The notes under the pieces: model-generated | What the model saw: the letters and a program-made list of their open reading frames with translations, nothing else | Told to the model about the DNA's origin: nothing | The model's database searches: none | Program-made: the position numbers and the translations under genes | Source of the DNA: Acidobacteriota bacterium | Lineage (GTDB): Bacteria > Acidobacteriota > Vicinamibacteria > Vicinamibacterales > JAFNAJ01 | Direction: 5' to 3' | NCBI GenBank assembly: GCA_017860085.1 | Contig: JAFNAJ010000002.1 | Coordinates: 1 to 37,202 of the forward strand | DNA: 37,202 nucleotides | Shown here: piece after piece, positions 23,462 to 31,079 of the stretch | How positions within the stretch are numbered: position 1 is the first letter of the stretch | Layout of the letters: the number at the start of each line of letters is the position of its first letter

Positions 23462-24220
23462 TCAGTCGCGCGCGAGCTGGCGCGCACGACGGAAGACGTC
23501 GTCCAGCATCCCGGCGGTCAGGCGACCGGTGTTCGTGTTCTGTCGGCTGGGGTGGTACGACTCGATGAGCATCGGAAGCCCAGCCACGGCAGGCTCGAAG
23601 ACGTGGCCGTGCGCGAACCGCGGTCGGGGGGTCACGGACACGCCCTTTGCGCGGGCCAGCTTCCAGTAGGCGTCTGATGCCACCCTTCCCAGCGCGACGA
23701 TGACGCGCACTCGGCCGAGCGCCTCCAACTCGGCCAGCAGGTGCGGAAAGCAGTGCTCCAGCTCATCGCGCGTCGGCTTGTTGCCGGGCGGCGCGCAGCG
23801 GACCGCCGCGGCGATGAACGCGCCGGTCAGGCGCAGGCCGTCGCTCGCATGCCGCGAGGTGGGTCGCGACGCGAGGCCGTTGGCGTGCATGGCCCGCATC
23901 AGGAAATCGCCCGAGCCGTCGCCCGTGAAGACCCGGCCCGTCCGATTGGCCCCATGGGCGGCCGGCGCGAGCCCCAGCACCAGGATGCGCGCCTCGGGAT
24001 CGCCAAACCCCGGGACCGGCCTGCCCCAGTACGTGTCGTTGCGGTGGGCGGCCTTCTTGTCCCGGGCAATCCGCGCGCAGTACTCGCGGAGCCGCGGACA
24101 TCGCTCACACGAGACGATCGCGCTCGCCACGCGGTCCAGTGAAGAAACCGGGCTGGTTCCGGGTGCTTGGCTCTTCGTTCGTGGTCCGTCCGGAGTTCTT
24201 GGTTCTTCGTGCCGAGCCAT
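23462..24220 (-). CDS. Uracil-DNA glycosylase, family 5 (UDGb-like); start uncertain
   Basis: 'CERCPRLREYCARIARDKKAAHRNDTYWGRPVPGFGDPEARILVLGLAPAAHGANRTGRVFTGDGSGDFL', 'IESYHPSRQNTNTGRLT'. N-terminal residues MARHEEPRTPDGPRTKSQAPG are repeat-derived. Confidence 0.88.
   Translation of the reverse strand: MARHEEPRTPDGPRTKSQAPGTSPVSSLDRVASAIVSCERCPRLREYCARIARDKKAAHRNDTYWGRPVPGFGDPEARILVLGLAPAAHGANRTGRVFTGDGSGDFLMRAMHANGLASRPTSRHASDGLRLTGAFIAAAVRCAPPGNKPTRDELEHCFPHLLAELEALGRVRVIVALGRVASDAYWKLARAKGVSVTPRPRFAHGHVFEPAVAGLPMLIESYHPSRQNTNTGRLTAGMLDDVFRRARQLARD
24153..24212. repeat. GGTTC/GAACC-rich dispersed repeat, copy 2 (single arm)
   Basis: Reverse complement of 24162-24199 matches window 45-82 at 33/38 positions (hand alignment); 24163-24180 is the shared core on the minus strand. 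Confidence 0.8.
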
Positions 24221-27773: not shown

Positions 27774-29432
27774 ATGTCACAATCGAGCCTGACGTCTCGA
27801 ATCGACTTCGAGACCCGCCCAGACCTGTACCGTCACTGGACGCTCTCCTTTGACGGGCCCATTGCCGTGCTCGCGATGGACGTGCAGGAGGATGGCGGCC
27901 TCTCCTCCGACTACCGCCTGAAGCTGAATTCCTACGACCTCGGCGTCGACGTCGAGCTCGCCGACGCCCTGCAGCGCATTCGCTTCGAGCACCCGGAGGT
28001 GCACGCCGTGGTGGTCCGCAGCGGCAAGGAGCGGATCTTCTGCGCCGGCGCCAACATCTTCATGCTGTCGGGCTCGAGCCACGCGCTCAAGGTGAATTTC
28101 TGCAAGTTCACCAACGAGACGCGGCTGGCCATCGAGGATGCCAGCGCCCACTCGGGGCTGAAGTTCATCGCGGCGGTCAACGGCATCTGCGCCGGTGGCG
28201 GGTACGAACTCGCGCTGGCCTGCGACGAGATCCACATGGTCGATGATGGAAGCGCGGCCGTGAGCCTGCCCGAGACGCCGCTGCTCGGGGTGCTGCCAGG
28301 TACCGGAGGACTCACCCGGCTCGTGGACAAGCGCAAGGTCCGGCGCGACCTCGCCGATCTCTTCTGCACGATCGTCGAGGGCGTCAAGGGCCGAAAGGCG
28401 GTCGAGCAGGGACTTGTCGACAAGGTGCACCCCACCAGCCGGTTCCTGCCAGCCGTCATGCAGCGCGCGCTGGAACTGGCGAAGACGTCGGACCGGCCAA
28501 CGAGCGGGCCCGGCGTCACGCTCGGCCCGCTTGGCGGCGAGGTGTCCGACCAGGGCGTGCGCTATTCGCACGTCACGCTCGTCGTCGATCGCGAACGTCG
28601 CACCGGTGAGCTGACGGTCAGGGCGCCGCGCGAGCCGCAGCCGGAGACGGTCGAGGCGATCGTTGCCGCCGGTGACGGGTACTGGCCGCTGCGCGCCTTC
28701 CGCGAACTGGATGCGGCCGTGCTGCACCTGCGCCTCAACGAGCCCGAGGTCGGCACGGTGGTGATTCGAACCGAGGGCGATGCCGACGCCGTGCTCGGCG
28801 TCGATCGCATGCTGCTGACTCACGCCGATCACTGGCTCGTGCGGGAGATCACGCTCTTCATGAAGCGGACGTTGAAGCGGCTCGACCTGACGGCCCGCAG
28901 CTTCATCGCGCTCATCGAGCCAGGTTCGTGTTTCGCGGGCAGCCTGTTCGAGCTCGCGCTGGCGGCCGACCGGTCGTACATGCTCGATGATCCCGAGCGT
29001 CCCGTTTCGGTCGCCTTGTCGGGCATGAACGCCGGGCCCCTGCCCATGAGCAACGGGCTGAGCCGTCTGCAGACGCGCTTCCTCGGGAAGCCGGACTTCG
29101 TCGACGAATTGCTCGCCGAGACCGAGCCGTTCGACGCGCCGGCCGCCAGCGACGGGGAGCTCGTGACGTCGGCCCCCGACGAACTCGATTGGGACGACGA
29201 GGTGCGGCTGGCCATCGAGGCGCGCGCGGCGTTTTCTCCCGATGCCCTGACGGGGATGGAGGCCAACCTGCGCTTTGCCGGGCCCGAGACGATGGAGACC
29301 AAGATCTTCGGTCGCCTGTCGGCCTGGCAGAACTGGATCTTCCAGCGGCCCAACGCGGTGGGCGAGCGAGGCGCGCTCAAGGCGTTCGGTGCGGCCCAGG
29401 GCCGTCCCCAGTTCGACTGGACACGCACGTAG
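27774..29432 (+). CDS. boxC: 2,3-epoxybenzoyl-CoA dihydrolase (BoxC)
   Basis: 552 aa crotonase-like protein: 'AVLAMDVQEDGGLSSDYRLKLNSYDLGVDVELADALQRIRFEHPEV', 'GICAGGGYELALACDEI', 'PGTGGLTRLVDKRKVRRDLADLFCT'. boxB is next downstream. Confidence 0.94.
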   Translation: MSQSSLTSRIDFETRPDLYRHWTLSFDGPIAVLAMDVQEDGGLSSDYRLKLNSYDLGVDVELADALQRIRFEHPEVHAVVVRSGKERIFCAGANIFMLSGSSHALKVNFCKFTNETRLAIEDASAHSGLKFIAAVNGICAGGGYELALACDEIHMVDDGSAAVSLPETPLLGVLPGTGGLTRLVDKRKVRRDLADLFCTIVEGVKGRKAVEQGLVDKVHPTSRFLPAVMQRALELAKTSDRPTSGPGVTLGPLGGEVSDQGVRYSHVTLVVDRERRTGELTVRAPREPQPETVEAIVAAGDGYWPLRAFRELDAAVLHLRLNEPEVGTVVIRTEGDADAVLGVDRMLLTHADHWLVREITLFMKRTLKRLDLTARSFIALIEPGSCFAGSLFELALAADRSYMLDDPERPVSVALSGMNAGPLPMSNGLSRLQTRFLGKPDFVDELLAETEPFDAPAASDGELVTSAPDELDWDDEVRLAIEARAAFSPDALTGMEANLRFAGPETMETKIFGRLSAWQNWIFQRPNAVGERGALKAFGAAQGRPQFDWTRT

Positions 29433-29457
29433 GCGCGGCTCGATGGACGCGGTGGGC

Positions 29458-29629
29458 GGTCTTGGTTCTTGGTTCCTGGTTCTTGGTTCGTGGTCCGTTC
29501 GTGGTTCCTGGTTCCTGGTTCGTTCTTGGTTCACGGTTGTGCGCGCCGCGCACAAGGAACGAGGCACGAACCAAGGACCTTGAACCAGGCACGGACCAGG
29601 AACCAAGAACAAAGAACCAAGCACTGACC
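29458..29629. repeat. GGTTC/GAACC dispersed repeat, copy 3: full-length long imperfect inverted repeat with heptamer/tetramer units
   Basis: Left arm TTGGTTC-TTGGTTC-CTGGTTC-TTGGTTC-GTGGTCC-GTTC-GTGGTTC-CTGGTTC-CTGGTTC-GTTC-TTGGTTC (29462-29532); centre TTGTGCGC-GCC-GCGCACAA (29537-29555); right arm of GAACCAR/GCAC/GAAC units to about 29629. Confidence 0.9.
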
Positions 29630-29660
29630 GCGGTTGATCCGTGTGGCTGAGGACTGACCG

Positions 29661-31079
29661 ATGATCTCCCATGAGCTGATCCCCAACAACGTCAACCTGT
29701 CGAGCAACAAGCGGTTGCAGCGTGCGCTCGAGCACTGGCAGCCTCGGTACCTCGACTGGTGGCGCGAAATGGGCCCCCAGGGCTTCCAGGACTATCACCG
29801 CGTCTACCTGCGGACGGCGGTGAGCGTCGATCCCGACGGGTGGTGCCACTACGACTACGTCAAGATGCCGGAGTACCGCTGGGGCATCTTCTTGACGCCC
29901 CCGGTCAAGGACCGCACGATCGGCTTCGGCGACTTCTTCGGGCAGCCGGTCTGGCAGGAGGTCCCCGGCGAGTTCCGCAACCCGCTCAAGCGCCTGATCG
30001 TGCTCCAGGGCGACACGGAGCCGGCCAGCGTCGAACAGCAGCGGCGGCTGGGGCAGTCGTGCCCGAGCCTCTACGATCTCCGCAACCTGTTCCAGGTGAA
30101 CGTCGAGGAGGGACGCCATCTCTGGGCGATGGTCTACCTGCTGCATTCCTACTTTGGCCGCGACGGGCGCGACGAGGCCGAGGAAATGCTCGAGCGCTCG
30201 AGCGGCAACGAAGACAAGCCCCGCATGCTCGAAGCCTTCAACGAGCCCATCGACACCTGGCTCGACTTCTTCATGTTCGCGATGTTCACGGATCGCGACG
30301 GCAAGTCGCAGCTGATGTCGCTCGCCGAGAGCTCGCTCGACCCGCTGTCGCGCACGACGCGCTTCATGTTGACCGAGGAGGCGCATCACCTGTTCGTGGG
30401 GGAGAGCGGCGTGGCCCGCATCATCCAGCGGACGTCGGAGCTGATGCGGCAGACCGGCCTGTCCGGCGACGTGCGGCGGGTGGGCGGCATCGACCTGCCA
30501 CTCATCCAGCGCCACCTCAACTTCTGGTTCAGCGCCAGCGTCGACCTGCACGGCAGCGAGATCTCGACCAACGCCGCGACCTACTTCGCGAACGGCCTCA
30601 AGGGGCGGGCGAAGGAGGACAGCTGGGAGGACCACCGCGCCCTGCACGGCACCTACGCCGTCGACGTGTTCGAGAACGGGGTAGGGCTGACGCGGAACGT
30701 GCCGGCACGCAACGCCATGAACGAGATGCTGCGGGACTGGTACATCAAGGACGCCACGGCCGGCGTCGAGCGCTGGAACCGGATCCTCGAGCGTGGTGGG
30801 CTCTCCGACCGGCTGTATGTGCCGTCACGACGCTTCAACCGCAAGATCGGGATCTATGCCGACCAGCACTTCACCCCGGAGGGACGGCCCATCTCGGCCG
30901 AGCAGTGGGAGGCGCGCAAGCACGAGTGGCTGCCGACGGCCAACGACAAGGCGTACCTGAAGAGCCTCACGACCCGACCGGTCTTCGAGGTCGGCCAGTA
31001 CGCCAACTGGATCGCGCCACCCTCCAAGGGGATCAACCGCCAGCCCCTGGACTTCGAGTACGTGAGGACCGACGAGTGA
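29661..31079 (+). CDS. boxB: Benzoyl-CoA 2,3-epoxidase oxygenase component (BoxB)
   Basis: 'PNNVNLSSNKRLQRALEHWQPRYLDWW', di-iron motifs 'VNVEEGRHLWAMVYLL' and 'LTEEAHHLFVGESG', 'RRVGGIDLPLIQRHLNFWFSASVDLHG'. Confidence 0.95.
   Translation: MISHELIPNNVNLSSNKRLQRALEHWQPRYLDWWREMGPQGFQDYHRVYLRTAVSVDPDGWCHYDYVKMPEYRWGIFLTPPVKDRTIGFGDFFGQPVWQEVPGEFRNPLKRLIVLQGDTEPASVEQQRRLGQSCPSLYDLRNLFQVNVEEGRHLWAMVYLLHSYFGRDGRDEAEEMLERSSGNEDKPRMLEAFNEPIDTWLDFFMFAMFTDRDGKSQLMSLAESSLDPLSRTTRFMLTEEAHHLFVGESGVARIIQRTSELMRQTGLSGDVRRVGGIDLPLIQRHLNFWFSASVDLHGSEISTNAATYFANGLKGRAKEDSWEDHRALHGTYAVDVFENGVGLTRNVPARNAMNEMLRDWYIKDATAGVERWNRILERGGLSDRLYVPSRRFNRKIGIYADQHFTPEGRPISAEQWEARKHEWLPTANDKAYLKSLTTRPVFEVGQYANWIAPPSKGINRQPLDFEYVRTDE

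Follow-up and report, generated by a model that had tools for sequence, protein, structure and literature searches.

What is an imperfect palindrome of 172 bases, made up of 7- and 4-base units, doing in the spacer between boxC and boxB, and where did it come from? Direct reading places it at positions 29458-29629 of the window, by which we mean the whole stretch of 37,202 nucleotides analyzed here. The parts of the element, the genes on either side of it and two further members of its family in the window are as follows.

27774-29432, + strand: boxC, 552 aa, enoyl-CoA hydratase family; its stop lies 25 nt upstream of the element
29458-29536, + strand: left arm, GGTC and then heptamers NTGGTTC/GTGGTCC with two GTTC tetramers (from sequence, inverted repeats and family consensus)
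29537-29555, no strand: centre, a perfect 8-bp stem TTGTGCGC/GCGCACAA with a GCC loop
29556-29629, - strand: right arm, the left arm inverted, with GAACCA heptamers and GCAC tetramers
29661-31079, + strand: boxB, 472 aa, its sole Pfam match (PaaA_PaaC) sub-threshold; its start lies 31 nt past the element
1-90, - strand: family copy clipped by the contig start, behind a molybdopterin oxidoreductase gene
24154-24212, + strand: decayed left-arm copy, between the lipoyl synthase (lipA) and uracil-DNA glycosylase genes

Structure of the element

The left arm opens with GGTC (29458-29461) and continues over 29462-29532 as TTGGTTC TTGGTTC CTGGTTC TTGGTTC GTGGTCC GTTC GTGGTTC CTGGTTC CTGGTTC GTTC TTGGTTC, so that the unit order given in an earlier, sequence-only reading of this DNA (7-7-7-7-7-4-7-7-7-4-7) is exact. 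The central stem described there, TTGTGCGC (29537-29544) and GCGCACAA (29548-29555) around a GCC loop (29545-29547), is indeed perfect, but to call it the exact centre was slightly loose, since the middle of the stem and the midpoint of 29458-29629 are some 2.5 nt apart. An inverted-repeat search returned arms of 76 nt that are about 75-80% complementary; the 75% complementarity over those 76 nt bears out that the right arm repeats the left in inverted form.

As RNA, the region 29440-29660 has a predicted folding energy of -124 kcal/mol. A set of 200 dinucleotide shuffles gave -82.2 +/- 4.6 (z = -9.2), and no shuffle was as stable as the native sequence. The long imperfect hairpin proposed earlier has a very large folding advantage over shuffled sequence. 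A scan of the window against Rfam gave no match at the gathering score.

A dispersed family in the genome

The palindrome is not a solitary curiosity. BLAST against its own assembly (3.27 Mb in 522 contigs) gives 65 matches, which correspond to about 30 distinct places, far from the absence of copies beyond chance that would have spoken against a repeat family. Within the window the pattern TGGTTC-N-TGGTTC occurs 27 times where 1.6 are expected, a count that takes in the partly decayed copies at 1-90 and 24154-24212. The 12 full copies, 129-202 nt in length, align with about 60 invariant columns and a fixed order of units. They share an invariant core in each arm, GGTCCGTTC in the left and GAACGGACC in the right, and typically run from CGGTTCTTGG to CCAAGAACCG; the centre varies among copies, and the central stem of the boxC-boxB element is not conserved in the others. 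Mapping the copies to genes, as had been suggested, places all but one of the roughly 30 between genes. With a simple codon-usage gene caller, the contexts of 29 copies are 17 co-directional, 5 convergent, 5 divergent, one at a contig edge and one within an ORF. Among 60 relatives searched, full-length matches to the consensus arm are confined to the source genome.

The two arms of a copy show no sign of having evolved as partners. Arm complementarity is 36.5 within one copy and 39.2 between different copies, and double changes occur in just 2 of 38 consensus pairs; there is no base-pair covariation. Arms that are interchangeable in this way are what descent from one palindromic source predicts, and the lack of covariation gives no support for selection on RNA structure. 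At 13 copies inspected for target-site duplication there was none, the mean longest flank match being 3.0 nt compared with 2.9 nt for mismatched pairs. The genome also carries a separate element of another kind, in which a Y1 transposase gene (L356, G000:C522:1418-1753) has a 30-nt, 97% inverted repeat, TAGGAAAAGGGGACACTCATCTTTTTCGCG, on both sides.

Presence and absence in relatives

Comparison of the orthologous boxC-boxB gap in 17 relatives, one of the checks proposed with the sequence-only reading, finds the element missing in the nearest of them, a member of the same family whose BoxB is 80% identical and whose gap is 79 nt long and array-free. Most other relatives have gaps of 5-57 nt, and a few carry short 7- or 8-mer arrays there. 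A member of another family, G053, has in the same gap an unrelated heptamer palindrome of the CCAGCTC/GAGCTGG type. The gap of G017 (L242) is filled by tandem repeats of about 30 nt (CAGCCAGGGCCGCAGATGACACCGTG...), unlike the 7-mer arrays.

A right-arm half copy lies in frame in an ORF of the DNA polymerase III alpha type (L288, G000:C278, 1554-1632), where it encodes an EPGTRN-type stretch immediately ahead of the finger domain. Relatives do not have this insert in the DnaE linker and carry other sequences at that point, several of which are different heptamer arrays. The linker of G008 (L367, G008:C114) contains a complete in-frame GGGATTC/GAATCCC palindrome, and the unit of that palindrome matches the arms framing a gene elsewhere in the same genome (L200), of the family considered next.

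Association with PF05635 genes

The genome has a single PF05635/TIGR02436 gene, for a 23S rRNA intervening-sequence/four-helix bundle protein (IVP). The gene begins 37 bp behind an arm (G000:C2) that shows 91% identity over 69 bp to the left arm of the boxC-boxB element and has the same GGTCCGTTC 7+4 grammar. The contig ends inside the gene and the arm is visible on the left side only; the corresponding GAACGGACCAAGAAC right arm is predicted to follow the gene.

This arrangement is widespread. Inverted flanks, defined as at least three 9-mers common to the upstream 250 bp and the reverse complement of the downstream 250 bp, are present at 83 of 104 PF05635 loci (80%), against 5-16% when the frame is moved by 700-850 bp; mismatched flank pairs show inverted 9-mer sharing in 155 of 2756 cases. 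The loci comprise 31 from the window's order, 19 from cyanobacteria (21 before removal of two fragments of a split gene), 28 from Xanthomonadales and a mixed set of 26 from Bacteroidota, Verrucomicrobiota, Planctomycetota, Myxococcota, Chloroflexota and Dyella. About 20% of the loci have no inverted flanks. Self-similarity beside the genes is greatest at a lag of 7 and weaker at 8 and 9; at period 7 it amounts to 6.9% in near flanks and 0.1% in far flanks in the window's order, 23.8% and 1.0% in cyanobacteria, and 10.9% and 0.9% in Xanthomonadales. Because the same architecture is found in complete and isolate genomes, it is not an artefact of metagenome assembly.

The heptamer itself varies among elements, with GGGAGTC/GACTCCC, GGGATTC/GAATCCC and CAGGGAG/CTCCCTG all occurring in other genomes of the window's order, and GGTTC-type arms framing PF05635 genes in G032, G022 and G004 as well. 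Arrays of four TGGTTC units turn up in public genomes of many phyla, with an IVP gene within 600 bp in just 2 of 120 contigs of other species, so the TGGTTC heptamer alone is no marker of the element. A control with the pattern written backwards was uninformative, since TTGGTTC reversed is a rotation of itself.

Arrays that stand without a gene can be compared with the IVP arms of their own genome. At 15 such solo sites (boxC-boxB gaps and DnaE linkers lacking an IVP gene, array-free sites counted too), the mean number of 8-mers shared was 18.3 with the arms of the same genome and 4.2 with those of other genomes, and the own genome ranked first in 7 of the 15 cases where 1.25 would be expected; the clearest match is that of the DnaE-linker palindrome of G008. 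The window element likewise shares the most 8-mers with the arms of its own genome among the 12 genomes compared. It has the inverted arms of roughly 7-nt units that characterize the gene-bearing element and shares an arm with the one in its own genome; between its arms there is a 3-nt loop and no PF05635 gene, and we therefore term it an ORF-less relative rather than a full element.

PF05635 genes are also carried on cyanobacterial plasmids; two Calothrix copies lie in the same neighbourhood, and no empty site was seen there. On plasmids of Calothrix brevissima (L296 and L297) the S23/IVP gene stands beside a phage-type integrase gene, and the 18 bp to the next gene apparently leave no room for an arm on that side.

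Turnover of arms and operon junctions

Three sites have conserved proteins on either side, which confirms their synteny. At each of them orthologous IVP genes are in place and the two arms match one another, although the unit differs by species. The pairs are L182 (TCAGTTT type) and L201 (CAGCTTC type); L187 and L193 (GGGAGTC) and L195 (ACGGGTA type); and L188 (GGGATTC) and L191 (GGCGGATA, an 8-mer). Such a joint change would come about either by templated replacement of both arms or by reinsertion of different elements. The IVP proteins at these sites are mutual or near-best matches, which leans toward joint templated replacement.

In Xanthomonadales, some IVP genes occupy what appear, judging from flanking protein sequence, to be the carA-carB (L327, L330, L342) and accB-accC (L333, L341) junctions. 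These are the same kind of place as the boxC-boxB junction. Some Xanthomonadales IVP elements have different units at one and the same junction.

Origin of the boxC-boxB palindrome

These observations support the view that the window element is probably a MITE-like relative, without an ORF, of the IVP elements, in which inverted 7-mer arrays stand on both sides of a PF05635/TIGR02436 four-helix bundle gene. The palindrome would then represent both inverted arms joined, with the IVP gene missing. Copies may have spread by duplication or transposition, with help from either the IVP protein or the hairpin itself, and would have settled where they do little harm, in short operon gaps and protein linkers. 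The suggestion of a selfish palindromic repeat, one of several in the sequence-only reading, fares well here, with a dispersed and conserved intergenic family that is missing from the orthologous gap in relatives. Neither transposition nor a recent empty site was seen in a comparison of one genome per species.

In a 23S rRNA intervening sequence (IVS), base pairing between the two ends creates a stem, which RNase III excises from the rRNA. In the boxC-boxB transcript, the arms may similarly pair into a long imperfect RNA hairpin, which would be a plausible RNase III substrate and, by analogy, is probably cut. Such a cut would do no more than part the two mRNA halves or stabilise them, and would not be what the element was selected for.

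The arrays might instead be local mutational products, built by slippage and given their inverted arm by hairpin-templated strand switching, with no mobile element involved. Different arrays do occupy the same unconstrained sites in different lineages, as in the boxC-boxB gap and the DnaE linker, and the joint switching of both arms at syntenic IVP sites is what templated correction would give. The copies in this genome, however, have one sequence in common, its units in fixed order and its core invariant, and arms taken from different copies, left and right, show equal likeness, which points to a single source of descent and not to independent origins; nor does local mutation explain the placement of arrays at PF05635 genes. 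We consider this origin unlikely, and simple slippage alone, which had been raised earlier, fails to account for one conserved sequence in one unit order across 12 copies.

Slightly less likely again is that the palindrome serves the box operon as a cis-acting RNA (an RNase III site, stabiliser or attenuator) that selection maintains to set the BoxC:BoxB ratio, a kind of role that has been suggested for the 7-bp STRR hairpin between hupS and hupL of cyanobacteria. The very strong hairpin lies exactly between two co-directional genes, the one promoter-like site near the box genes is upstream of boxC with none in the gap itself, another family has a different heptamer palindrome in this gap (L244/L326), and a heptamer hairpin between hupS and hupL, with no function assigned, provides a precedent (PMC2670836). 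Yet most relatives with the same operon lack the element in that gap, and its own arms pair no better than those of different elements, with double changes at 2 of 38 pairs. The processing or attenuation specific to boxC and boxB that the sequence-only reading entertained finds no support, given about 30 related copies beside unrelated genes, in all orientations and once in a coding frame, whose pairs do not covary.

A REPIN or MITE of a conventional transposase (RAYT or IS) is improbable. Short dispersed palindromes are typical of both and the genome does have one Y1 transposase gene, but that gene is bounded by a 30-nt inverted repeat of unrelated sequence and lacks GGTTC arms, and PF05635 is the only gene found between or beside arms of this kind. 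Together with the lack of target duplications, a Y1 transposase with ends of its own makes a conventional transposase unlikely as the agent. A RAYT/REPIN system was accordingly rejected as a candidate, no RAYT (Y1 transposase) gene being flanked by the window palindrome. The ends of the element are common to the IVP gene and not to a known transposase, the transposase search having covered Y1 transposases.

A bidirectional intrinsic terminator is very improbable despite the strong G+C-rich hairpin, as the sequence-only reading had judged, for the element has no T tract and no terminator-like site, copies occur also in divergent gaps and inside an ORF, and 80-nt arms far exceed terminator stems.

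Relation to known elements

To our knowledge, the heptamer arrays of cyanobacteria and other bacteria have so far had no agreed origin or function, and no catalytic function is known to us for the IVP protein. The IVP element with inverted heptamer arms appears to be widespread and little noticed: a search of the open literature found no paper tying heptamer arrays to PF05635/IVP genes. The statistical link between the two in several phyla provides a testable origin for the arrays and a candidate context for an orphan four-helix bundle family with a solved structure (2GSC, XCC0516). The same link would account for the recurrence of odd hairpins between co-transcribed genes (boxC-boxB, carA-carB, accB-accC) and for low-complexity protein insertions such as those in DnaE linkers, while the way in which the two arms turn over together at syntenic sites poses a directly testable puzzle.

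A broader reading, which we put forward only tentatively, is that the heptamer repeats of cyanobacteria (STRR), Xanthomonas, Beggiatoaceae and the present genome may all be arms or gene-less remnants of one mobile, IVS-like class of element encoding an Avd-related four-helix bundle protein. Such elements would be inserted mainly at operon junctions and removed from transcripts by RNase III, the unit of both arms would be replaced together by some templated process, and the 23S rRNA IVS would be a special case. The elements described here resemble the latter in that the encoded IVP belongs to the same protein family, PF05635; they differ in lying between protein genes and having heptamer-array arms, the window copy being gene-less and placed between boxC and boxB, not in a 23S rRNA gene. 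The resemblance to REPIN/RAYT systems and MITEs lies in the multiple short, dispersed, gene-less palindromes with terminal inverted repeats and in the presence of a gene-bearing relative at another place in the genome, and the differences in the lack of a Y1 transposase with these arms and of target duplication, and in arms made of tandem units rather than a fixed REP. PF05635 itself resembles Avd of diversity-generating retroelements (PMC10053308).

Closest in structure are the STRR of filamentous cyanobacteria, tandem 7-bp units that form a hairpin between hupS and hupL and have no assigned function (PMC2670836). Both consist of tandem 7-bp units, form hairpins and lie between operon genes, a likeness that is structural only and carries no claim of common lineage. 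By description the STRR are known as repeats only, whereas the arrays here frame PF05635 genes, cyanobacteria included, and the window family is set apart by a conserved sequence and a 7+4 grammar of its own.

The GGGAATC heptamers of Xanthomonas and GGGGA(C/T)T of Nostoc are likewise intergenic, with about 70 convergent (inverted) pairs in X. campestris; the paper reads them as G-quadruplexes and makes no mention of S23 or four-helix proteins (PMC4692102). The window unit is not a G-tract. GGGATTC/GGGAATC arms flank PF05635 genes at accB-accC in Xanthomonadales.

Dispersed intergenic heptanucleotide elements have been described in Geobacter metallireducens (PMC2700814), and TAACTGA repeats form dispersed intergenic 7-mer arrays in marine Beggiatoaceae, mostly single, in one orientation and upstream of start codons, where they were read as regulatory (PMC4679880). 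Neither paper reports a link to IVP genes (PMC4679880, PMC2700814). Arms of the NAACTGA type, similar to the Beggiatoaceae repeats, flank the PF05635 gene at L182.
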